From Rubrivirga marina (GTDB lineage: Bacteria > Bacteroidota > Rhodothermia > Rhodothermales > Rubricoccaceae): 64,000 bases of DNA. A program made the position numbers and the translations under genes. The DNA is taken from positions 993,694 to 1,057,693 of the forward strand of contig NZ_MQWD01000001.1 in NCBI RefSeq assembly GCF_002283365.1, written 5' to 3'. Below, in pieces: positions 1,226-41,899 of the stretch. How positions within the stretch are numbered: position 1 is the stretch's first letter; the number at the start of each line of letters is the position of its first letter. Under the pieces are notes generated by a model. It was not told the DNA's origin. It saw only the letters and a list, made by a program, of their open reading frames with translations, and made no database searches.

Positions 1226-1981
1226 TCACTCGCCGAACTGGGCGGCGGCGTAGAAAAAGACGGACTCCGCCGAGTCGGCCGCCGTGCTCCCGGTCGTCGT
1301 GTGCTCGGCCAGGACCGCGCCGCCGCGACGCACCGTCACCGCCAGTCGGACGTCGGCCTGCGCGGACCGGCCTCGGAGGCGAACCTCGACCGTCCCCGAC
1401 CGGCGCTCCCCGAAGTCGACGGTCCGGGTGAAGGGGAACGACGCGATGGGCTCCTCGACCGGCGTGCCGTCGGCGCCCGTCGTCGTCACGCGGGCGTCGG
1501 CGATCGGGCCGGCCACGTCGACGCGGTACTCGACGCGGGTGGGGGCGGAGGGGCCGCGCCAGAGGACGGGCGCCACGACGAGGACGAGGGCGACCGCCAG
1601 CCCGAAGAGCACGAGCGCTCGGCGCTGGGACGCCGGGCCGGGGTCGGGAGGCTCCGCCTCGGCGACGTCGTCGGGCGGGTGGAGGCGGTAGCCGACCTTG
1701 GGGACCGTCTCGATGAGGCCGGCGCCGCGCGCGTCGTCGCCGAGCGCCTGGCGGAGCTGCGAGACGCACCGCGTCAGCGAGGCGTCGGTGACGACCACGT
1801 CGGGCCAGACGGTGTCCATCAGTTCGTCGCGCGTCACGACCTCGCCGGCCCGCTCCGCGAGGAGGACGAGGACGGCCACGGCCTTCGGCTCCAGGCGCAC
1901 CGCTGCGCCGTCGCGCCGGACCTCGTTGGCGACGGGGTCGACGGTCCAGGGACCGAGGGCGAACGCGGTGGCGGGCGGCAT
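1226..1981 (-). CDS. membrane-anchored winged-helix regulator (ToxR/CadC-like)
   Basis: 251 aa. Residues 1-105 form an OmpR-type winged-helix DNA-binding domain (KAVAVLVLLAERAGEVVTR, then the KVGYRL wing). A single transmembrane segment follows at about 124-142, then a roughly 105-residue domain predicted to lie outside the inner membrane. This is the layout of ToxR/CadC one-component regulators, which sense on the outside and bind DNA from the membrane. It lacks a receiver domain. It is divergent from the secreted HExxH gene, with a perfect 20-base palindrome between them, so it may control that gene or itself. The signal sensed is not evident. Confidence 0.8.
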   Translation of the reverse strand: MPPATAFALGPWTVDPVANEVRRDGAAVRLEPKAVAVLVLLAERAGEVVTRDELMDTVWPDVVVTDASLTRCVSQLRQALGDDARGAGLIETVPKVGYRLHPPDDVAEAEPPDPGPASQRRALVLFGLAVALVLVVAPVLWRGPSAPTRVEYRVDVAGPIADARVTTTGADGTPVEEPIASFPFTRTVDFGERRSGTVEVRLRGRSAQADVRLAVTVRRGGAVLAEHTTTGSTAADSAESVFFYAAAQFGE

Positions 1982-2040
1982 CGGGTTGGCGGAGATGGGT
2001 GGAGGCTAGGCGTGGGAGGCGTCCCTCTGTCGGAGGAAGA

Positions 2041-2060
2041 TCGGAGGTCGCGACCTCCGA
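2041..2060. promoter_or_regulatory. 20-bp perfect palindrome between divergent genes
   Basis: TCGGAGGTCGCGACCTCCGA is a perfect inverted repeat, 60 bases before the winged-helix regulator start and about 70 before the secreted metalloprotease-like gene. Position between divergent genes suggests an operator, most simply for the adjacent regulator. It differs in sequence from the GCCTCGGC palindromes seen elsewhere in the window. Confidence 0.45.
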
Positions 2061-2131
2061 CGGACCTTCGAACGCCCTGAGGGCTCTAGCGGGCGATCGC
2101 GGCGATGCTCCGGCGTCCCACCCCACGCCCG

Positions 2132-3124
2132 ATGAAGCCCGTCCTCCTGGCCCTCGTGCTCACCGCCACCGCGCCCCTGTCCGCCCAACCCCCCGCCGAC
2201 CTCTGCCCGCCGCTCGCCGAGGCGGACCGGGTCGCGCTGGCGGAGGCCTTCCGCCTCGGCGCAGCCGTAGACCCGCTGCCCGGTTGGCACGACGCGCCGT
2301 CCGCCGTCCTGCTGGTCGCCGGCGACCGCGAGGTGCTCGTCCGCCACCCGCGCCCGCCGGACGGCTTCGCCCTCGCCGTCCCGTTCGACTCGCTCCTCGG
2401 CGGCCCGGTCTACGTCCGCGACCGGCAGTTCCAGCCGGACTTCCTCGCCACGTTCCCCGTCGGCGGCGTGCCGACGGTCGTCGTGGGCACGCCCGGGCAG
2501 ACGGGCCTGGGGCCGACCGACTGGGTACTGACGCTGCTCCACGAGCACGTCCACCAGGTCCAGATGGCCCAGCCGGAGTATTTCGACGCCGTCGCTGCGC
2601 TCGGCCTCGCCCGCGGCGACACGACCGGGATGTGGATGCTGACCTACCCGTTCCCGTACGACGAGCCGGCCGTCGGCGAGCGGTTCGACGCCTACCGCAC
2701 GGCGCTGGCGGACGCGCTGGCGGACCCGACGCCGGCGGCACTCGCGGAGGTCCGAACAACGCGGGCCGCGCTCCGCGACAGGCTGGGCCCGGCCGACGAC
2801 CGCTACCTCGCCTTCCAGCTGTGGCAGGAGGGCGTGGCCCGGTACGTCGAGGTCCGGGGGGCCGAAGCGGCGGCCGAGGCGGGCGGGGCGCTCCCCGCCT
2901 TCCGCGCCCTCCCCGGCGCGGTCCCGTACGGAGTGGGCGCGGCCGGTCTCCGTGAGCAGGTCGCGAACCAACTCCGCGGGCTGGAGCTCGCGGGGGCGAG
3001 GCGGAACGTCGTCTACCCGGTCGGGGCGGCCGAGGCGCTCCTCCTCGACACGGCGCGGCCGGGCTGGCGCCACCGGTACCACGCCGAGCCGTTCGACCTC
3101 TCGCGCTACTGGGTCCGGCGCTGA
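2132..3124 (+). CDS. secreted putative zinc metalloprotease (HEHVH)
   Basis: 330 aa from the ATG at 2132, chosen because a clean signal peptide (MKPVLLALVLTATAPLSA) begins there; another ATG at 2105 would add nine residues. Residues 137-141 read HEHVH, a match to the HExxH zinc site, and WQEGVARYVE follows with Glu233, spaced like the third zinc ligand of gluzincin peptidases. No named family is recognised. Activity is inferred only from these motifs. It stands alone on the plus strand, divergent from the winged-helix regulator. Confidence 0.6.
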   Translation: MKPVLLALVLTATAPLSAQPPADLCPPLAEADRVALAEAFRLGAAVDPLPGWHDAPSAVLLVAGDREVLVRHPRPPDGFALAVPFDSLLGGPVYVRDRQFQPDFLATFPVGGVPTVVVGTPGQTGLGPTDWVLTLLHEHVHQVQMAQPEYFDAVAALGLARGDTTGMWMLTYPFPYDEPAVGERFDAYRTALADALADPTPAALAEVRTTRAALRDRLGPADDRYLAFQLWQEGVARYVEVRGAEAAAEAGGALPAFRALPGAVPYGVGAAGLREQVANQLRGLELAGARRNVVYPVGAAEALLLDTARPGWRHRYHAEPFDLSRYWVRR

Positions 3125-3243: not shown

Positions 3244-5736
3244 ATGTCCATGCGGTTCGCTCTCTTCGCCGTCGCTCTTCTCGCCACCGTCGGCACGGCG
3301 TCCGCTCAGTCCGAGCGGTTCGAGCGGCTCGAACGGACCTCGAACGGTGTCACCATCACGTACGGTCTGTTCGTGCCGGAGGACTACGACCCGACCGTCG
3401 CGTACCCGCTCGTGATGGCCCTCCACGGCGCCGGCGAGCGCGGCTCCGACTACCGCAACCTGACCGTCGGCGACGCCGCGACGAACGGGCTCACGACCTG
3501 GGCCACGCCTCAGGTCCAGGACGAACACCCCGCGTTCGTCCTCGCCCCGCAGGTCCCGTCGGACCGCCGCTGGAGCGCCGAGACGGACCCCGACCAGTCT
3601 GACCTCACGGCCGTCCAACTCACGACGCTGGAGATCCTGGAGTCCGTCGAGGCCGAGTACTCCATCGACCCGGACCGGATCTACGTTGCTGGCCTGTCGA
3701 TGGGCGGGCACGGGACGTGGGACTTCGTGTCTCGCCTCCCCGGCCGGTTCGCCGCCGCCGTCCCGATGAGCGGCGAGGGCTTCCCGTCCCAGGCCGAGAC
3801 GCTGCTCCACCTCCCGATCTGGGCGTTCACCGGCGAGTCGGACACGGTCGTTCCGCCGGGCGAGACGCGCCGCGTGATCCAGCGGCTCGAAGACCTCGGC
3901 CGAGACGTGATCTACACGCACTGCCGCCGGTCGCCGATTGGCGCGCGGGCCTACGGCTGCCCCGGATACATCGGCACCGACTCCCTCGCGGCGGCCCTCG
4001 ACGCCCACGCCGACCTGATCTACTGGAGCGAACCGAGCGTCGGGCACGGGCCGTGGGGGCCGTGGTTCCGAAACGGGTTGATGCAGGACTGGCTGTTCTC
4101 GAAGGTCCGCCAGGACCCCGACGCCGTGACGATCACCGCGCCCGCCTCGGGCGCGCGCTGGGCCGGGACGGAGACGGTCACCTGGACCACGACGCGCTCG
4201 ACGGCCGACGTCGTCGAAGTGTGGCTCAACCGGACCGACGACCCCGCCAGTTGGCAGAAGCTGGGCGAGGCGCCCATCGCCGCCGGCACGTTCGAGGTCG
4301 ACACCGAGGCGGCCGAGGACGCCGCCCGGGCCCGCGTCCGCCTCTGGGTGCGGAACGCGGACGGGCGGATCGCTGGCCGGGCCACGAGCGCGCCGTTCGC
4401 CCTCGACAACCCCGGGGACGCGTCGCCGGAGCTGACGCTCCAGGCCGAGGGCCTCCGCTTCGACCCGCGCCTCGGCGGCACGGAGTACACGCTCTCGTTC
4501 CTCGCCGCCGACCCCGACGGCGACGCGCTCACGGCCGAGGTCGCCTACAGCCTTGACGGCGGCCAGACCTACACGGTCATCGACACGCCCGACCTCGGCG
4601 CCGGGGCGGAGCAGGCCGTCGAGATCGACCTGGCGGCGCTCCCGAACTCGCGCGAGGCCCGCTTCCTCGTCTCGCTCTCCGACGGCACGACGACCGTTTC
4701 GGAGGAGACGGTCTCGTTCCTCAAACAGACCCCGCGTGACGAGAACACGTTCGTTCAGCGGGTCGCAGGCGACGGCGAGGGCACGGTCACGCTCCACTTC
4801 GTGGACCCGGCGGCGCTCACGGGCCACGAGTACCGGATCTCGATCGCGGTCGCCGAGGACGGGACCAAGACCTACGACGTGACGGACGTGGATGAGGGCG
4901 AGACCGTGCTGGAGGGCGTCCCGCTCTCCGACGGCATCCTCGAGAGCCCCGTGTTCGACGGGATCGCGCTCGTGGTCGAAGACCTGGACGAGGGCCGTGC
5001 GAACCCGGAGCAGACGGGCTGGGTCGCGGGCGACACGGACCTCGGCGTGACCGTCTCCGGCGGCACGGCGCGCGTCGCGATTCTGACCATCGACCTCCTC
5101 GCGACGGAGACCGACTACGAGGTCACGGTCGCCGACGAGGTCGTCGGCCAGTCGACGGCGATCTACACCTTCCCGGCGACCGACGTCCGGTTCACCGTCA
5201 CCGGTGACGGCGGGCAGCCCCGCGAGGTCGCCTTCGACGACGCGGACGATGACGGCCAGCTCGGCGACGGCGACGTGCTCTACATCCTCGAACCCGACGC
5301 CGCGGGCGAGCTGGAACTCGCGTGGAAGCTGGAGTTCGAGGACGGCGAGGTCGCCCCCGAGGCCGGCGACGTGTTCCGCCTCGTCCCGGTCCGCTCGCTC
5401 GGCGCGGGCGACGTGTTCCAATTCGAGGGCCGGTTCAACACGACCGTCGAGGCGTCGCCCGAGACCGCGTCGCTGGAGGCGTTCCCCAACCCCTTCGGCG
5501 ACCGGCTGACGGTGGCTTACCGGCTGGCGGCGCCCGCCGCCGTCCGCGTCGAGGTGTTCGACGCCCTGGGCCGCCGCGTGGCGCTCCTCGTCGATGGCCC
5601 GTCGCCCGCCGACGGGCAGGTGCGGTGGAACGCGCGCGGCGTGGCGAGTGGCGTCTACGTCGTCCGCCTGACGACCGAGGCGGACGGGGCCGCGCCCGCC
5701 TCGGTGCGCCGGTCGGTGGTGCGAGTGGGGCGGTAG
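3244..5736 (+). CDS. secreted alpha/beta-hydrolase esterase with C-terminal sorting domain
   Basis: 830 aa. A signal peptide (about 1-22) is followed by an esterase domain to about 285 of the type seen in predicted phospholipase/carboxylesterases: ALHGAGERGSDYRN (oxyanion region), GLSMGGHGTWD with nucleophile Ser152, GESDTVVPP (probable Asp) and SVGHGPW (probable His). The middle 290-740 looks like Ig/FnIII-type beta modules (TAPASGARWAGTETVTW). The last 85 residues (FPNPFGDRLTVAYRL ... GVYVVRLTT) form a type A sorting domain that directs export by type IX secretion in Bacteroidota. The substrate, perhaps a polysaccharide ester, is unknown. An ATG six bases downstream is an alternative start. 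Confidence 0.85.
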   Translation: MSMRFALFAVALLATVGTASAQSERFERLERTSNGVTITYGLFVPEDYDPTVAYPLVMALHGAGERGSDYRNLTVGDAATNGLTTWATPQVQDEHPAFVLAPQVPSDRRWSAETDPDQSDLTAVQLTTLEILESVEAEYSIDPDRIYVAGLSMGGHGTWDFVSRLPGRFAAAVPMSGEGFPSQAETLLHLPIWAFTGESDTVVPPGETRRVIQRLEDLGRDVIYTHCRRSPIGARAYGCPGYIGTDSLAAALDAHADLIYWSEPSVGHGPWGPWFRNGLMQDWLFSKVRQDPDAVTITAPASGARWAGTETVTWTTTRSTADVVEVWLNRTDDPASWQKLGEAPIAAGTFEVDTEAAEDAARARVRLWVRNADGRIAGRATSAPFALDNPGDASPELTLQAEGLRFDPRLGGTEYTLSFLAADPDGDALTAEVAYSLDGGQTYTVIDTPDLGAGAEQAVEIDLAALPNSREARFLVSLSDGTTTVSEETVSFLKQTPRDENTFVQRVAGDGEGTVTLHFVDPAALTGHEYRISIAVAEDGTKTYDVTDVDEGETVLEGVPLSDGILESPVFDGIALVVEDLDEGRANPEQTGWVAGDTDLGVTVSGGTARVAILTIDLLATETDYEVTVADEVVGQSTAIYTFPATDVRFTVTGDGGQPREVAFDDADDDGQLGDGDVLYILEPDAAGELELAWKLEFEDGEVAPEAGDVFRLVPVRSLGAGDVFQFEGRFNTTVEASPETASLEAFPNPFGDRLTVAYRLAAPAAVRVEVFDALGRRVALLVDGPSPADGQVRWNARGVASGVYVVRLTTEADGAAPASVRRSVVRVGR

Positions 5737-35298: not shown

Positions 35299-36333
35299 CT
35301 AGAAATGAGCGTTGGCGAACGGGAGCAGCCGCTTCCAGCCCCGGTTGTTGCCGGCCCAGTTGAGGAGCCCGATCTGGACGCCGTGGAGCGACCCCGCGAT
35401 GTTGACGATCCCGATGCTGAGCCCGCGCATCTCGCCGCGGACGTTCGAGTACGGGCTAATGGCGACGCCGCGGAGCACGCCGTCGCGCGGGACCCGGACC
35501 GTCGCCCCCGCCACGAGAAGGCCTCGCCCGTCGGCGGTGCCGGCGCCGAGCCCGCCGATCGCCACGCCCCGGAGTTCGGACGCCCCGGCCCCGAGGCCGC
35601 CCACGAGGAGGCCGTCGGCCCGCCCGCCCACGCCGGCCCCGAGGCCGCCGACGCCGATCCCTCGGAAGTCGCCCCCGACGCCGACGCCCGCGCCGCCAAT
35701 CAAGAGTCCGTCGGCCCGCTCGCCGACGCCCACGCCGAGCCCGCCGACCGCGATGCCCGTGACGTCACCCCCCGCCCCGATGCCGAGGCCGCCGACCCAG
35801 AGGCCGACCACGTCGCCGCCCGCGCCGACGCCCAGCCCGCCCGCACCGACTCCGACGAGGTCGCCGCCCGCTCCGATCCCGAGTCCGCCGAGGCCGATGC
35901 CCTGAACGTCGTCGCCCGCACCGACGCCGAGCCCGCCCACCACGAGGCCGCGCACGCTTCCGCCCGCGCCGACGCCGAGGCCGCCGAGGGCGATCCCGTC
36001 GAGCCGGTCCGTGGCGCTCACGCCGCCCAGGCCCACCGCGATGCCCTCCACCTCGGCGGCGCCCGTGAGCGGGAGGCCGAGGGCGAGGCCGGAGATCCGC
36101 CCGACGCTGTCGGCCGGCGCCTTCGGCGCGAGGACCGTCGCGTTGATCCCGACGACCCGACGGAGCGCGCGGTCGCGGACGTTGAGCCGGAGCCCGGTCA
36201 CGTGTGGCACGTCGCCGATCCCGATGCCGACGCCCTCGGCTCCGATCAGGACGCCGCCCGACGGCGGCGGGTCGGCCGGCTGGGCCGAGGCGGCGACGGA
36301 CAGCAGGGCGGCGGCGAGAAGGGCGAGGCGCAT
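35299..36333 (-). CDS. exported protein with ten 16-residue Gly repeats
   Basis: 344 aa. Signal peptide to about residue 18. Residues 110-275 consist of about ten units of 16 residues on the pattern xxGxxxGGLGxGxGGx, for instance VRGLVVGGLGVGAGDD and VQGIGLGGLGIGAGGD. The period suggests a stacked beta structure. The C-terminus (IVNIAGSLHGVQIGLLNWAGNN) resembles the end of Leptospira LA_2272-type surface repeat proteins. DNA repeats follow the protein period but vary at third bases, so the array is old or selected. Surface or periplasmic location is inferred; function unknown. Confidence 0.8.
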   Translation of the reverse strand: MRLALLAAALLSVAASAQPADPPPSGGVLIGAEGVGIGIGDVPHVTGLRLNVRDRALRRVVGINATVLAPKAPADSVGRISGLALGLPLTGAAEVEGIAVGLGGVSATDRLDGIALGGLGVGAGGSVRGLVVGGLGVGAGDDVQGIGLGGLGIGAGGDLVGVGAGGLGVGAGGDVVGLWVGGLGIGAGGDVTGIAVGGLGVGVGERADGLLIGGAGVGVGGDFRGIGVGGLGAGVGGRADGLLVGGLGAGASELRGVAIGGLGAGTADGRGLLVAGATVRVPRDGVLRGVAISPYSNVRGEMRGLSIGIVNIAGSLHGVQIGLLNWAGNNRGWKRLLPFANAHF

Positions 36334-36445: not shown

Positions 36446-36796
36446 TCAGCCCACCGGCGTGACGGCCGCCCGGTCCTCCTCGCCCGTCCGGATCCGCACG
36501 ACGCGCTCGATGGGGAGCACGAACACCTTCCCGTCGCCGACCTCGCCCGTCCGCGCGGCGCCGACGATGGCGTCGACGGTCCGCTCGACGAACGGGTCGG
36601 AGACGGCGACCTCGAGCTGGACCTTGTCGTGGAGCTCCATCTTGACCGTCGTCCCGCGGTAGGTCTCGACGGTGTCGAGCTCCCCACCGTGGCCCTGCAC
36701 GCGGTTGACGGTGACGCCGCGGACGTCGGCCTGGAAGAGGGCCTGGAGCGTGGCGGAGAGGCGCTCGGGACGGATGACGGCGAGGACCAGCTTCAT
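36446..36796 (-). CDS. glnK: PII nitrogen regulator, T-loop lacks Tyr51
   Basis: 116 aa PII protein that senses 2-oxoglutarate and ATP/ADP and gates AmtB. TGEVGDGKVFVLPIERVVRIRTGE is the C-terminal signature. In the T-loop, Tyr46 is present (TYRG) but position 51, uridylylated in enterobacterial GlnB/GlnK, is Val. Control by GlnD-type uridylylation is therefore unlikely; direct ligand sensing is expected. It starts one base after the amtB stop, the classic amtB-glnK operon with amtB first. Confidence 0.95.
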   Translation of the reverse strand: MKLVLAVIRPERLSATLQALFQADVRGVTVNRVQGHGGELDTVETYRGTTVKMELHDKVQLEVAVSDPFVERTVDAIVGAARTGEVGDGKVFVLPIERVVRIRTGEEDRAAVTPVG

Positions 36797-36797
36797 C

Positions 36798-38156
36798 TCA
36801 GACGGTGGCAGGGGTGGGAGCGGCGACGGCGGCCCGGACGTCGGCCGGCGCCTCGGCGTCGAGGACGAGCACGGCGCCCTCGCCGCGGGCGTAGGCCTCC
36901 TCGCCGTGGTCGCCCACGTCGAGGCCCGCGCCCTCGTACGCGTCGCTCGAGCGGAGGGCCGTCACGAGCGAGATTCCCTTGAGGATGACGAACGAGAGCG
37001 CGCCGCTGTAGGCGGCCACGGCCACGATCGAGAGGAACTGCGGCCAGAGCTGGCCCGGGTTGCCGAAGAGGAGGCCGTCGGCCCCGCCACCCCAGGCCGT
37101 TGAGGCGAACACGCCCGTCAGGAGCGCCCCGACGGCGCCGCCGAGGCCGTGCGCCGCGACCACGTCGAGCGAGTCGTCGAGCCGCGTCCGCGTGCGGTAG
37201 TGGATGGCGAAGTAGGACGGGAACGCGCCGATGGCGCCGATCGCCATAGCCCCGAGCGGCGGGACGTGGCCGGCCGCCGGCGTCACGGCCACGAGCCCGA
37301 CGACGATGGCCGTCGCGGCGCCTACGGCCGTGACCTTCCGCCCGTACCCGAGGTCGAGGAACGTCCAGACCGTGATCGTCGCGGCCGGCGCCAGGAACGT
37401 GTTGGCGAAGGCGAGCGCGGCCGAGGTGTTCGCCCCGAGTGCGCTTCCGGCGTTGAACCCGAACCACCCGAACCACAGGAGCCCGGCCCCGAGGAGGACG
37501 AACGGCACGTTGTGCGGCACGATGGCCTGCCGCCCGTAGTCCTTCCGCGGGCCCACCACGAGGGCCGCCACGAGGGCCGCGGCCGCCGCGTTCACGTGGA
37601 CCACCGTCCCGCCCGCGAAGTCGAGCGCGTCGATCCCGAAGATCCAGCCGTCGGCCGACCACACCCAGTGGGCGACCGGCGCGTAGACCACGAGGCTCCA
37701 GATCGTGATGAAGGCGAGGTACGGCACGAACCGCATCCGCTCGACGACGGCCCCCGAGATGAGCGCGGCCGTGATTACGACGAACGTCCCCTGGTAGATC
37801 GCGAACAAGAGGTGCGGGATCTCGCCGGAGGCCTCGAGCCCGACGCCGTTCAAGAACGCGTACCCGAGCCCGCCCGTGAACGGACCGCCGCCCTCGCCGA
37901 ATGCCAGCGAGTAGCCCAAGAGCGCCCATCCGACGGCCACGATTCCCATCGAGGCCACGCTCATCATCATCGTGTTGAGCATGTTCTTCGCCCGCACGAG
38001 CCCGCCGTAGAAGAAGGCGAGGGCCGGCGTCATGAGGAGGACGAGTGCGGCGGCGGCGAGCATCCAGGCCGTCGAGGCCGGGCTGATCTCGGCGTCCTGG
38101 GCCGACGCCGCCAGCGGCGCGAGCAACAGGGCCACGGGGAGGAAGCGACGGAGCAC
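36798..38156 (-). CDS. amtB: ammonium transporter
   Basis: 452 aa from a GTG start that gives a signal peptide (LRRFLPVALLLAPLAASAQ), as in many Amt proteins; a TTG at 38210 is the alternative. Eleven membrane helices; conserved FYGGLVRAKNMLNTMMMS, the twin-His pore residues in FAGGTVVHVNAAAAALV and in DVVAAHGLGGAVGALLTG. It conducts ammonium in and is blocked by PII, whose gene follows by one base. Confidence 0.95.
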   Translation of the reverse strand: MLRRFLPVALLLAPLAASAQDAEISPASTAWMLAAAALVLLMTPALAFFYGGLVRAKNMLNTMMMSVASMGIVAVGWALLGYSLAFGEGGGPFTGGLGYAFLNGVGLEASGEIPHLLFAIYQGTFVVITAALISGAVVERMRFVPYLAFITIWSLVVYAPVAHWVWSADGWIFGIDALDFAGGTVVHVNAAAAALVAALVVGPRKDYGRQAIVPHNVPFVLLGAGLLWFGWFGFNAGSALGANTSAALAFANTFLAPAATITVWTFLDLGYGRKVTAVGAATAIVVGLVAVTPAAGHVPPLGAMAIGAIGAFPSYFAIHYRTRTRLDDSLDVVAAHGLGGAVGALLTGVFASTAWGGGADGLLFGNPGQLWPQFLSIVAVAAYSGALSFVILKGISLVTALRSSDAYEGAGLDVGDHGEEAYARGEGAVLVLDAEAPADVRAAVAAPTPATV

Positions 38157-38210
38157 GGGGGCGATCGGCAGTGAGAGCGAGAAGATGCTGCCGAGATGAA
38201 GCGTCGGCAA

Positions 38211-38782: not shown

Positions 38783-39205
38783 ATGTCCGACCTCAAGACC
38801 CAGCCCACCGGCGCCTCCGTCGACGCGTTCATCGATGGGCTCGACAGCGAGCGCCGCCGCGAGGAGTCCCGCCGCCTCGTGGAGATCCTCCGCGACGTGA
38901 CCGGCGAGGAGCCCGAGATGTGGGGCGAGAAGATCGTCGGGTTCGGGCGGTACCACTATCGCTACGCCTCCGGGCATGAGGGGGACTGGATGCGGATCGG
39001 GTTCGCCCCGTCGAAGCGGCACCTCTCGCTCTACTGCATGGGCGGGGCCGCCGACGCGCACGCCGACATCCTGGGGCGCCTCGGCCCGCATCGGACGGGC
39101 TCGGGCTGCGTCTACGTCACCCGCCTCGACCGCGTCGACGAGGGCGTGCTGCGGGAGCTGTTCGAGGCCAACCTCGCCCGGCTAGCGGCGACCTACGACG
39201 ACTGA
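38783..39205 (+). CDS. DUF1801 (YdhG-like) protein
   Basis: 140 aa. FIDGLDSERRREESRRLVEI, EPEMWGEKIVGFGRYHYRY and GFAPSKRHLSLYCM match the DUF1801 fold, a small alpha/beta domain distantly related to frataxin-like and iron-chaperone-type proteins. Function unknown. Its end overlaps the convergent TetR gene by 13 bases. Confidence 0.9.
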   Translation: MSDLKTQPTGASVDAFIDGLDSERRREESRRLVEILRDVTGEEPEMWGEKIVGFGRYHYRYASGHEGDWMRIGFAPSKRHLSLYCMGGAADAHADILGRLGPHRTGSGCVYVTRLDRVDEGVLRELFEANLARLAATYDD

Positions 39206-39795
39206 CCGGGCGCGGCGAGGACCGTCTCTGCCAGCGCCCGGACGCGGTCGCGGTCGGCAGCGAGCGCCCGGAGCGGGCCGTCGACGAGGAGCGCCGCCAA
39301 CCCATGGGCGTGGCTCCAGGCCCCGAGCGCGACGACGGCCTGGCGGTCGGCCTCGGGCTCGAGGTCGCGGACGACGGCCACGAGACGCCGGAAGCCCACG
39401 ACGTCCTCCGGCAGCCCATCCGTGTCGATCTCGCCGAACGGATCGCCCATCTCGGGCCGGAAGGCGAGGCGGAACCGCTCGGGGTGGTCGACCGCGAAGA
39501 GGACGTACGCCACGCCGATCGCGCAGAGCCTCTCATGCGGCTCACCACCGGCCGCTTCGGTCTCCCCGTCCGCCTCGGCGAGCGCGGCGTCGAGGTCGGC
39601 CAGGGCGTCCTCGGCGAGGGCGGTCACGAGCTCGGCCTTCCCGCGGAAGTGGTGGTACGGCGCCGTCGCGCTGACGCCGGCCCGCCGGGCGAGGTCGCGG
39701 AGCGAGAGCGCGCCGACGCCGTCGGCGTCGAGGACGGCGGCGGCCTCGTCGAGGAGCGCGCGGCGGAGGTCGCCGTGGTGGTAGGCATCGGACAC
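39193..39795 (-). CDS. TetR-family transcriptional regulator
   Basis: 200 aa from the GTG at 39795 (VSDAYHHGDLRRALLDEA); a longer in-frame GTG at 39852 lies inside a candidate operator and is less likely. The N-terminal HTH (LSLRDLARRAGVSATAPYHHFRGK) is typical, and the C-terminal domain contains the WSHAHGLAALLVDG motif of the TetR_C/WHG class. It is divergent from a four-gene operon that includes an SDR and a DUF4188 protein and probably represses it. Confidence 0.93.
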   Translation of the reverse strand: MSDAYHHGDLRRALLDEAAAVLDADGVGALSLRDLARRAGVSATAPYHHFRGKAELVTALAEDALADLDAALAEADGETEAAGGEPHERLCAIGVAYVLFAVDHPERFRLAFRPEMGDPFGEIDTDGLPEDVVGFRRLVAVVRDLEPEADRQAVVALGAWSHAHGLAALLVDGPLRALAADRDRVRALAETVLAAPGQSS

Positions 39796-39825
39796 GGGCT
39801 TCGGGGGGGCGGGTGAAACTTCGCG

Positions 39826-39852
39826 GTGCTCAGATGGTACAGAACTAAGCAC
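39826..39852. promoter_or_regulatory. candidate TetR operator
   Basis: GTGCTCAGATG-GTAC-... AAGCAC: a 27-base imperfect inverted repeat centred on GTAC, with outer arms GTGCT and AAGCAC, between the TetR gene and the divergent operon. The stretch is also locally AT-rich, as a promoter would be. Confidence 0.5.
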
Positions 39853-39882
39853 CCGTCAGATTGCCGCCTTCGCGGCCCGGCC

Positions 39883-40149
39883 ATGACCCGCCTCCAAACC
39901 GCCCTCCTCCTCGTCCTCCTCGCGTTGGCGTCGCTCGTCGTCGGGCGCGCCGCGTGGGACCTCGTCGCCGACCCACTGTGGGCGGCGCTCACCGTGCTGC
40001 CAGCCCTCGCCGCGTCGGCCGCCCGCTCCGTCCCCGAGTGGGTGGGGTGGGTCGCGTTCAGCTCGATCTGGTGGCTCCCGTGCGCGCTCGGGAAACGTCG
40101 CTGGGCCTGCGGGTCGCGCGCGTGCATCTCCCGTCCTTCCGCCGCCTGA
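39883..40149 (+). CDS. small membrane protein, first gene of TetR-linked operon
   Basis: 88 aa with two predicted membrane helices (ALLLVLLALASLVVGRAAW and VPEWVGWVAFSSIWWLP) and a basic Cys-containing tail (CALGKRRWACGSRAC). No family recognised. It starts about 30 bases after the candidate TetR operator; the next gene begins three bases after its stop. Confidence 0.65.
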   Translation: MTRLQTALLLVLLALASLVVGRAAWDLVADPLWAALTVLPALAASAARSVPEWVGWVAFSSIWWLPCALGKRRWACGSRACISRPSAA

Positions 40150-40152
40150 GCC

Positions 40153-40599
40153 ATGACGTCGTCTCCGAGCCGCGCCACCCTCTGGCTGACCGGCCTCCTG
40201 CTCCTCGCCGTCCCGACCATCCAGTACGGCGGCTATTTCCTCGTTACCGTCGTCAGCGGTTGGTCGGACCTCGCGCTGACGGACTTCCAGCGGGCCTTCT
40301 TCCGCGCCGGCCACGCGCACGCGGGCGTCCTCGTGATCCTCGCCCTCGTGGGCCTCGTGCTCGCCGACCACGCCGCGCTCCCGGCCGGTTGGCGGTGGAC
40401 GGGACGGATCGCCCTGGTCCTCGCGCCGATCCTGGTGAGTGGGGGCTTCTTCGCGTCCGCGATCGGCGAGGGCGTGACCGAGCCGCCCGGCGGCATCGCG
40501 CTGCTCTGGATTGGCGTCGCCGCGCTCGCCCTCGCCATGCTGACGCTGGGCGTCGGCCTGCTCCGCGCGGCCCGCCGGGCGCCTGTCGGAGCCACGTGA
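40153..40599 (+). CDS. four-helix membrane protein
   Basis: 148 aa with four hydrophobic helices. The motif FFRAGHAHAGVLVILALV, with two histidines at the start of helix 2, is conserved-looking and could bind a metal or heme, but no family function is known to me. It is the second gene of the TetR-linked operon and is followed by the SDR gene after 14 bases. Confidence 0.75.
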   Translation: MTSSPSRATLWLTGLLLLAVPTIQYGGYFLVTVVSGWSDLALTDFQRAFFRAGHAHAGVLVILALVGLVLADHAALPAGWRWTGRIALVLAPILVSGGFFASAIGEGVTEPPGGIALLWIGVAALALAMLTLGVGLLRAARRAPVGAT

Positions 40600-40613
40600 T
40601 CCCCACCCGACCC

Positions 40614-41405
40614 ATGGCAGACTTCCAGACCACCTACGGCCCGTGGGCCGTCGTCACCGGCGCGTCGTCGGGGATCGGGCGCGCGTTCGCCGAGGCGCTC
40701 GCCACGCGCGGCCTGAACGTGGTCCTGACCGCCCGTCGGGAGGCCGCGCTCGCCACGCTGGCGGAGGCCCTCCGCCAGACCCACGGCGTCGAGGCGCGCG
40801 TCGTCCCGGCCGACCTCGGGACCGAGGCGGGCGTAGCCGCGGTCGAGGGAGGCAGCGCGGACCTCGACGTGGGGCTCCTCGTGGCGTCGGCCGGCTTCGG
40901 CACGTCGGGCGCGTTCCTCGAATCCGACCTCGGCGACGAGATCGCCATGCTCGACGTGAACGTCCGCGCCGTGGCCCGGCTGACGCACGGCGTCGGGCGT
41001 CGGCTGGTGGCGCGCGGGCGCGGCGGGATCGTCCTGCTCGGCTCGCTCGTCGGGTTCCAGGGGACGCCGTTCGCGGCCCACTACGCGGCGACGAAGGCGT
41101 ACGTCCAGACGCTCGGCGAGGCGCTCCACGTCGAGCTCGCGCCGCGCGGCGTCGACGTGGTGGTCAGCGCGCCGGGGCCCGTCGACACCGGGTTCGCCGA
41201 GGTCGCCGACATGCAGATGGGGGCGGCCCTCACGCCCGACGCCGTCGTCGGGCCGACGCTGGCGGCGCTCGGGCGGCGCCAGACGGTCCGTCCCGGCCTC
41301 CTCACCAAGGTCCTGACGGCCGGGCTGTCGCCGCTGCCGCGGTGGGCGAGGGTCCGCGTGATGGGCCGCGTGATGGGCGGGATGACCGAGCACCAGCGCG
41401 CCTAG
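40614..41405 (+). CDS. SDR-family oxidoreductase
   Basis: 263 aa. TGASSGIGRAFAEALA is the NAD(P)-binding motif, YAATKAYV carries catalytic Tyr/Lys, and SAPGPVDTGFAE follows. The RREAAL region after strand 2 favours NADP. In the family DltE/YqjQ-like group by overall look. Third gene of the TetR-linked operon; the DUF4188 gene starts two bases after its stop, so the two products probably act on related substrates. Confidence 0.93.
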   Translation: MADFQTTYGPWAVVTGASSGIGRAFAEALATRGLNVVLTARREAALATLAEALRQTHGVEARVVPADLGTEAGVAAVEGGSADLDVGLLVASAGFGTSGAFLESDLGDEIAMLDVNVRAVARLTHGVGRRLVARGRGGIVLLGSLVGFQGTPFAAHYAATKAYVQTLGEALHVELAPRGVDVVVSAPGPVDTGFAEVADMQMGAALTPDAVVGPTLAALGRRQTVRPGLLTKVLTAGLSPLPRWARVRVMGRVMGGMTEHQRA

Positions 41406-41407
41406 CG

Positions 41408-41899
41408 ATGCCGTACCCCGACCGCACCGCCGCCCACACCGAGGGCGACGTCGTCGTGTTCCTGATCGGGACCCGCATCAACAAGCTCCACCGTCCCGAC
41501 AAGTGGGTCCCGGTCGTCCGCGCGATGGGCCGGGCGATGGCCGAGCTCTCGGCGCACCCGGAGCTCGGCCTGCTCGGCTCGCGGTTCCGCCGCGCCGGCC
41601 GCTGCGTCGACGCCGTCCAGTACTGGCGCTCGTTCGATCACCTCCACGCCTACGCCCGGGCCCGCGACGCGGCCCACCTCCCGGCGTGGCAGGCCTACAA
41701 CCGGGCCGCGCGCGGCAACGACGCCGTCGGCGTGTGGCACGAGACGTTCCTCGTGCGGGCCGGCGAGTACGAGGCCGTGTACCGCAACATGCCGACGTAC
41801 GGGCTGGCGAAGGCCGCCGAGGCGGTCCCGGCCGTCGGGGCGTGGGAGGGCACGGCCGGCCGCCTCGGGCGCGGCGTCGAGCCCCTCGCCGGGTCCTAG
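41408..41899 (+). CDS. DUF4188 protein
   Basis: 163 aa. VVVFLIGTRINKLHRPDKWVPVVRAM, VQYWRSFDHLHAYAR and HETFLVRAGEYEAVYRNMP define DUF4188, a ferredoxin-like alpha+beta barrel related to monooxygenase-like and phenylacetaldoxime-dehydratase-like proteins; histidines in RSFDHLHAYA and VWHETF may be functional. Last gene of the operon controlled from the TetR operator. Substrate unknown. Confidence 0.9.
   Translation: MPYPDRTAAHTEGDVVVFLIGTRINKLHRPDKWVPVVRAMGRAMAELSAHPELGLLGSRFRRAGRCVDAVQYWRSFDHLHAYARARDAAHLPAWQAYNRAARGNDAVGVWHETFLVRAGEYEAVYRNMPTYGLAKAAEAVPAVGAWEGTAGRLGRGVEPLAGS

Follow-up and report, generated by a model that had tools for sequence, protein, structure and literature searches.

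Styrene oxide isomerase (SOI, or StyC) binds ferric haem b through H58, and the DALI search described by its authors gave no substantial relatives (PMC11374702); in the Rhodococcus enzyme the haem ligand is reported to be H57 (PMC12502698). Fma-ABM (af470), the fungal protein of the fumagillin cluster that gave Pfam family PF13826 its name, is described as cleaving prefumagillin oxidatively (PMC7020470). The locus compared here with these systems lies in a 64,000-nucleotide stretch of the Rubrivirga marina genome (contig NZ_MQWD01000001.1, positions 993,694 to 1,057,693; this whole stretch is called the window). It consists of a tetR gene facing four genes, which specify two small membrane proteins (M1 and M2), a short-chain dehydrogenase/reductase (SDR) and a DUF4188 protein. 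An earlier sequence-only reading had taken it for a self-contained pathway for sensing, moving and reducing a small lipophilic compound. The interpretation tentatively preferred here is that of a biotransformation operon under a ligand-released TetR switch, in which M2 may be a haem-b membrane enzyme with the SDR and the DUF4188 protein acting downstream of it.

The TetR-headed cluster

The tetR gene (39193-39795 of the window, minus strand) is divergent from the plus-strand genes M1-M2-SDR-DUF4188, which follow one another after 3, 14 and 2 bp; the whole occupies positions 39193-41899 on contig C1 of a 4.98-Mb genome assembled in 11 contigs (G000). This arrangement, gaps included, and the assignment of a TetR, an SDR, a DUF4188 protein and two membrane proteins without a family had been proposed earlier and were borne out by reading and by Pfam analysis. 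TetR matched TetR_N (E 2e-12) and TetR_C_33 (PF13305; E 1.3e-13), both above cut-off. Its start was placed at the GTG at 39795 because this matches the start of the TetR of G017, a genome of the same order and of another family; the longer open reading frame (ORF), to 39852, would cross the palindrome described below. M1 (39883-40149) is a small hydrophobic protein of 88 residues with a Cys/Arg-rich tail; it matched no Pfam family, and the third-position GC of its gene was 0.95 across the N-terminal part. M2 (40153-40599), of 148 residues, is predicted to be a four-helix membrane protein with RAGHAHAG in helix 2 (GHAHAG being residues 53-58), and it matched no Pfam or NCBIfam family at E values up to 1. 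The SDR (40614-41405) is of the classical type (adh_short in Pfam, E 2.4e-37) and has both the TGxxxGxG and the YxxxK motifs (as TGASSGIG and YAATK). The DUF4188 protein (41408-41899) matched PF13826 over profile positions 1-118 of 118 (E 1.8e-39; 135 bits against a cut-off of 25), and was the sole match to that family in the genome. PF13826, today called Monooxy_af470-like, is the former DUF4188, a name that a literature search met in one paper, on a cysteine database.

The 87-bp region between tetR and M1 contains an imperfect inverted repeat at 39825-39853 (29 bp; 9-nt arms GGTGCTCAG and CTAAGCACC, 8 of 9 positions paired, with 11 nt between them). A 27-base palindrome facing the operon had been noted before; a site is indeed present there, better delimited as 29 bp with 9-nt arms, but as a palindrome alone it does not rise above chance. 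Equal palindromes arose in 263 of 2000 shuffles of the intergenic region, and when 2000 pieces of 87 nt were drawn at random from the window, 587 held one as good, so the palindrome by itself proves nothing. Upstream of M2 in G017, 25 of 30 aligned positions of this probable operator were kept, in both arms and inside a longer conserved stretch, and a scan of the whole genome for the arms, with up to 2 mismatches, returned this site alone. This conservation, beside a TetR 62% identical to that of the window, together with the single genomic site, makes a local, dedicated TetR switch likely. TetR_C_33 was present in all 6 of the TetR proteins scanned that adjoin M2 or DUF4188. The TetR-M2 intergenic regions of several actinobacterial loci held other palindromes, of the type GAAC..TGTT..TATAACA..GTTC, which carry little weight as their scores often overlap those of shuffled controls. 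The earlier claim of divergent TetR control thus gained support from the shared TetR_C_33 domain and from the retained operator region. TetR regulation of the operon is well supported by synteny, and M1-M2-SDR-DUF4188 very probably form a TetR-regulated operon. As such the operon is of an ordinary kind, a TetR-controlled oxidoreductase operon.

In G017, tetR is divergent from M2-SDR-M1 and DUF4188 is lacking. Identity to the window proteins was 78% for M2, 74% for the SDR and 43% over 60 residues for M1 (the protein downstream of the SDR); PF13826 had no match in the whole of that genome. An M2 match came from two of the 60 genomes searched, G000 itself and G017, and from none of the 3 of the same genus and 5 of the same family. 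By phylum, M2 was found in 3 of 395 genomes of the organism's own phylum (own included), in 5 of 199 of the acidobacterial and in 31 of 296 of the actinobacterial phylum, counts for which no more than 10-20 of the candidates were scored in many genomes, so that absences are not firm. A full-length PF13826 match (E < 1e-38) was present in 6 of the 395 (own included). In the third M2-bearing genome of the phylum (G301), neither a TetR nor an SDR was detected in the 3.4-kb stretch with M2. With M2 and PF13826 so patchy, and DUF4188 missing from G017, the five genes do not make up a constant set. The self-contained five-gene pathway is therefore unsupported, and a look for the set in other genomes found it not to be widely kept. 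The earlier interpretation as a whole held in part, since enzymes of the set keep company in other lineages, as shown by the arrangement in G017, by M2-DUF4188 pairs in four actinobacterial-phylum genomes and by a TetR-DUF4188-NAD epimerase arrangement in two genomes of the own phylum. Patchiness of this degree would also be expected if the four plus-strand genes were a chance assembly without shared function; this we consider very unlikely, given the retention of TetR, M2, SDR and M1 in G017, the M2-DUF4188 pairs elsewhere and the co-occurrence described below.

The M2 family, its regulators and its partner genes

M2 loci were collected by a pattern scan with six search peptides, FFRAGHAH among them (best 80 of 106 loci), and by hidden Markov model (HMM) searches. 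The former came mostly from Actinomycetota, and also from Acidobacteria, Myxococcota, Rokubacteria and one Bacteroidetes bacterium; the latter yielded the 31 actinobacterial-phylum genomes (a sample) and the 5 acidobacterial-phylum genomes given above, one of the five only via a distant relative. RAGH-x-HA-[GA] was present in 33 of the 36 HMM-found loci, and in 30 of 33 after removal of three loci from genomes already encountered through pattern or sequence matches. The three exceptions were L228 and L231, unreadable at this point, and L229, whose frameshifted copy has WHAGHAHAG. In alignment A1, FFRAGHAHA is invariant in part because FFRAGHAH was a search peptide; the part that is stable in the HMM-found loci is RAGH-x-HA-[GA]. 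The string RAGHAHAG gave no match in a literature search. Pfam analysis of 67 members returned scattered weak matches (25 of 37 families shown), the best with E 0.00027 and none in more than 5 members. M2 represents a widespread, unclassified family of predicted four-helix membrane proteins, without a Pfam or NCBIfam match for the window member and often found beside a ligand-sensing regulator. Two M2 genes lie close together in G777 (L241, 3562-3963 and 4869-5390), and G667 gave three M2 matches.

Regulators were counted in 82 loci, namely the 80 pattern loci, G017 and the window. A divergent regulator adjoined M2 in 63 (MerR in 39, TetR in 24), one locus had TetR on both sides, and 18 were scored as having none, the window being among these only because M1 lies between TetR and M2. 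In L004 and L012, TetR is upstream of M2 on the same strand. Pfam confirmed both of the MerR proteins scanned (MerR_1) and all three of the TetR proteins (TetR_N with TetR_C_33). Regulator HMM matches numbered 70 within 1 kb of M2 and 7 in the rest of the loci, a 31-fold higher density; this figure and the 82-locus count are biased, as the HMMs were built from the same loci and regulators of other subfamilies elsewhere are under-counted. In a less biased actinobacterial set (L203-L231), MerR or TetR was near M2 in 12 of 29 loci. A divergent PadR gene accompanied M2 in L225, L229 and L230 (the same as L250, L244 and L257), with Pfam confirmation for L230 and for L238, a wider stretch of L225; L226 holds the end of a protein resembling the PadR neighbours.

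These same four loci (L225, L226, L229 and L230, of the 29 of the actinobacterial phylum) have DUF4188 as the next gene after M2, in the same orientation; L226 lies at a contig end, L229 is the one with the frameshifted M2, and L230 has two copies. In L238, PadR is divergent from M2-DUF4188 preceded by a membrane protein with weak winged-helix matches, which showed no similarity to M1; the layout resembles that of the window, but with another regulator and no SDR. Of the 296 genomes, 13 had both M2 and PF13826, where 4.4 would be expected (Fisher p 5e-5, with no correction for kinship). PF13826 itself was matched 51 times in the actinobacterial phylum, across 42 genomes; among the best 30 loci, 18 had a regulator within about 1.7 kb (PadR 11, MerR 4, TetR 3) and 3 had M2. 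In the own phylum, TetR was present in 2 of 5 PF13826 loci, and the TetR-DUF4188-NAD epimerase arrangement was found in two genomes of one genus (with Pfam assignment for L091 only). In L089, also of the own phylum and from a genome without an M2 match, a 245-residue membrane protein (1922-2659, minus strand), one hydrophobic part of which contains HIHG, lies 19 bp before DUF4188; its only match was weak (DUF2871, E 0.052), and it is possibly an analogue of M2. SDR genes were seen next to M2 as well: in Arthrobacter L040 the SDR start overlaps the M2 end, and in L039 the SDR is divergent from M2. A 91-residue protein precedes M2 in L040, an assignment to be read with care since in 36 of 80 loci the simple gene caller overlooked M2 itself, and its neighbour lists are weak unless backed by Pfam or HMM matches. 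EthD and DUF4188 proteins share a dimeric alpha+beta barrel fold, and in a Phaeobacter styrene operon an EthD-family gene (L120, 3050-3370) comes right after styC, which recalls the M2-DUF4188 neighbourhood.

In the acidobacterial loci L232, L233 and L234, M2 sits in a TetR-headed operon, with a MacB/FtsX permease on one side of it and an ABC ATPase, then HlyD, on the other (in L232 and L234 the genes were assigned by similarity to L233); the L234 operon has an extra protein of 3-beta-HSD/epimerase type. This context raises the possibility that M2 is a small exporter, or an exporter subunit, for a toxic lipophile that induces it, the SDR and DUF4188 being secondary, and a small four-helix protein encoded behind TetR or MerR is indeed often a drug exporter. 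Set against this, the acidobacterial loci L002, L003 and L005 lack the ABC operon, an EmrE-type match was found in 1 of 67 members only (E 0.0035), no acidic residue is invariant, and no transporter fold was among the best structure matches listed, which makes export by M2 quite unlikely. The 'moving' of a compound envisaged by the sequence-only reading is likewise unsupported in the window, where neither membrane protein has a Pfam family, the only hint of export being these three acidobacterial loci. An ABC-operon context as a general feature of acidobacterial M2 was considered and dropped, as it is present in 3 of 6 loci. Just before M2 in L002 lies a 33-residue HlyD-like stretch (4831-4929; 58% identity), perhaps a remnant of a TetR-ABC exporter operon.

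In 2 of 2 genomes, distant M2 relatives (FRLAH[TA]HG; E 1.5e-8 and 2.7e-9) are encoded immediately after a multihaem c-type cytochrome. These acidobacterial pairs (L242, 4374-6671; L243, 1154-3328), cytochrome first, look like a membrane anchor/redox pair.

Fold of M2 and a possible haem site

Model 1 (AlphaFold2, from alignment A1) has four helices, at residues 7-37, 44-71, 78-103 and 115-142, with a predicted local distance difference test score (pLDDT) of 91.6; model 2, of a Myxococcus member of the family, reached 96.6. The best VIA-align match of model 1 was SOI (PDB 8pnu; Z 11.2, 3.3 Å over 130 residues), followed by MAPEG proteins (up to 10.6), a cbb3 oxidase (9.4) and a quinol NO reductase (9.3). 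Model 2 matched Tetrahymena COX1 482-629 (Z 11.2, 3.6 Å over 133), Thermus ba3 oxidase 339-495 (Z 11.0, 3.6 Å over 132), 8pnu (Z 10.9, 2.9 Å over 132) and LTC4 synthase (10.7); the COX1 and ba3 ranges presumably correspond to oxidase helices IX-XII. With Foldseek, 8pnu had the highest template modelling score (0.73/0.66) among the 50 matches listed for model 2, but with an E value of 0.94, and LTC4 synthase headed the 50 listed for model 1 (E 0.086), 8pnu not being among them.

In haem-copper oxidases the H-x-H helix is helix X, and its histidines bind the two haems. A GG pair precedes the first histidine by 25 residues in 46 of 67 M2 proteins, the nearest GG being at 15, 16, 27 or 28 in 21; the distance is 24 in all 6 SOIs and in 28 of the 33 oxidases, the other 5 lacking a GG there. 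These oxidases had themselves been selected by H-x-H (a frame with the motif was found in 37 of 42 loci, and L150, L153, L157 and L164 were dropped, leaving 33). Profile comparison gave no support for M2 being homologous to SOI or the haem-copper oxidases, hhalign being non-significant throughout. Alignment A1 against 6 SOIs gave Prob 0.2 and E 0.3, and an enlarged M2 set in local mode gave E 0.2 against the 33 oxidases, 0.22 against 5 C-type or nitric oxide reductase (NOR)-like proteins and 0.4 against SOI, the SOI comparison (E 0.3-0.4) being a weak test with thin profiles (Neff 2.9 and 1.9). The best local alignment with the 33 oxidases sets GHAHAGVL on the AHFH of helix X and that with the 5 C-type/NOR-like proteins falls elsewhere, both being non-significant; against the sequences of solved structures the M2 profile gave weak matches only (best E 0.23).

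Several results weigh against M2 as a haem-b enzyme of a biotransformation operon. Besides the hhalign values, the Z scores of about 11 fall short of the value of about 13 below which the tool urges caution with helical bundles, with SOI, COX1 and MAPEG tied, and the MAPEG proteins that tie with SOI are non-haem enzymes. The catalytic residues N64, N99 and Y103 of StyC have no obvious counterparts in M2, as judged by eye without a residue alignment. One of the 36 HMM-found loci, the frameshifted L229, has H instead of R in the motif, and next to most M2 genes inspected a regulator was seen but neither an SDR nor DUF4188 was detected. With the profile comparison non-significant, haem in M2 is a hypothesis with several weak supports, close to an even question with the balance falling just on the negative side.

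The structural ties would also fit M2 as a MAPEG-like membrane enzyme, acting on thiols or lipids without haem: LTC4 synthase, MGST2 and mPGES-1 matched model 1 with Z up to 10.6 and model 2 with Z up to 10.7, and LTC4 synthase leads the Foldseek matches of model 1. The thiol sites of MAPEG proteins are made of tyrosines and arginines, whereas the conserved residues of M2 are G, F, R and H, its H-x-H would be left unexplained, and the window member has no Pfam match; such an enzyme is highly doubtful here. If haem is bound, M2 might be an electron-transfer protein, passing electrons from quinol to DUF4188 or to c-type cytochromes, rather than an enzyme converting a substrate. The H-x-H in helix 2, as in oxidase helix X, the COX1 fold matches and the multihaem cytochromes beside distant relatives all point that way; with no recognised redox partner in the window operon, and M2 often alone with its regulator, we regard this role as unlikely. 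A far-reaching idea is that M2 and SOI belong to a superfamily, so far overlooked, whose members are single four-helix membrane units with haem b, each matching one (IX-XII) of the three four-helix arcs of oxidase subunit I; an M2 homotrimer would then be the living counterpart of the unit triplicated into the oxidases, now an inducible enzyme under TetR, MerR or PadR. This is a long shot; a literature search gave no paper on a triplication origin of oxidases among the matches listed.

The preferred reading, that of a ligand-released switch on a biotransformation operon, can be outlined as follows, its haem, chemistry, ligand, substrate and oligomeric state being those that we infer. Computation shows the gene order, the operator kept in G017, the recurrent placing of M2 next to TetR, MerR or PadR regulators, the M2-DUF4188 and M2-SDR pairs and the conserved RAGH-x-HA; comparative evidence thus backs the regulation and the partnerships. 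A TetR dimer (TetR_C_33 class) occupying the 29-bp site between the divergent genes, in their 87-bp promoter region, would repress M1-M2-SDR-DUF4188 and probably also tetR itself. A hydrophobic (lipophilic) ligand would free TetR from the divergent promoter, so that M1, M2, the SDR and DUF4188 are made and may transform the ligand or its product. M2, four-helical and probably oligomeric, would hold haem b through H54 and H56 of helix 2 and serve as a membrane enzyme or redox centre for lipophilic substrates, the haem most likely acting as a Lewis acid or redox centre. The SDR would reduce or oxidise the carbonyl product with NAD(P)H, DUF4188 could be a soluble monooxygenase-like partner, and M1 might be an accessory protein. 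The position of M2 beside chemical-sensing regulators in many bacteria, together with its likeness to haem-binding membrane enzymes, suggests that the cluster probably processes a fat-soluble compound.

Flanking features and comparison with known systems

The cluster is flanked by a DUF1801 gene at the tetR end and by a trypsin/PDZ protease gene lying tail to tail with DUF4188. The DUF1801 gene (38783-39205, plus strand) has its 3′ end convergent with that of tetR, with a 13-bp overlap. Insertion of the cluster between conserved flanks was looked at, and the matches to the protease within the family, 29-44% identical, look like paralogues. Further out, an ammonium transporter gene (PF00909, E 8.6e-110) is followed by a small ORF which on reading resembles a P-II signalling protein (36446-38210, minus strand), and about 450 bp from this ORF lies an imperfect tandem repeat array of 48/96 bp, some 400 bp long (35583-35994).

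The part of this locus worth bench work is the unclassified, regulator-linked M2 family with its possible oxidase- or SOI-like haem fold. Since its members in the actinobacterial sample (31 of 296 genomes) often stand beside a ligand-sensing regulator, and in some cases beside a PF13826 enzyme, inducer and activity are directly testable. Should M2 indeed bind haem, as its fold and motif suggest, the haem-b membrane enzymes known from SOI, a very small class, would gain a further member, and the family could bear on the origin of haem-copper oxidases.

Of the known systems, Fma-ABM belongs to the same Pfam family as the window DUF4188 protein, PF13826, but the latter is encoded in a bacterial operon with no polyketide or terpene genes adjoining. 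The MAPEG proteins LTC4 synthase, MGST2 and mPGES-1 are four-helix proteins that match the M2 models at tied Z; they differ in that M2 has no Pfam match and in that the thiol-site residues were not recognised in it by eye. Subunit I of the haem-copper oxidases (PF00115) has 12 helices against the 4 of M2, which gave no PF00115 match at E up to 1 and no significant profile alignment; its C-terminal helices nevertheless match model 2, with H-x-H in the second helix of the unit and GG 24-25 residues before it. StyC scores 251.7 bits on its own family model (NF045734, cut-off 150), to which M2 had no match at E up to 1, and no styAB monooxygenase accompanies M2, whose neighbours in the window are DUF1801, TetR, SDR, DUF4188 and trypsin/PDZ genes and whose context more widely is that of TetR, MerR or PadR. 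Yet StyC is, like M2, a four-helix membrane protein of similar size and a tied-best VIA-align match in both models; in each the helix-2 histidine comes 24-25 residues after a GG pair, and a gene for a carbonyl-processing enzyme may follow.

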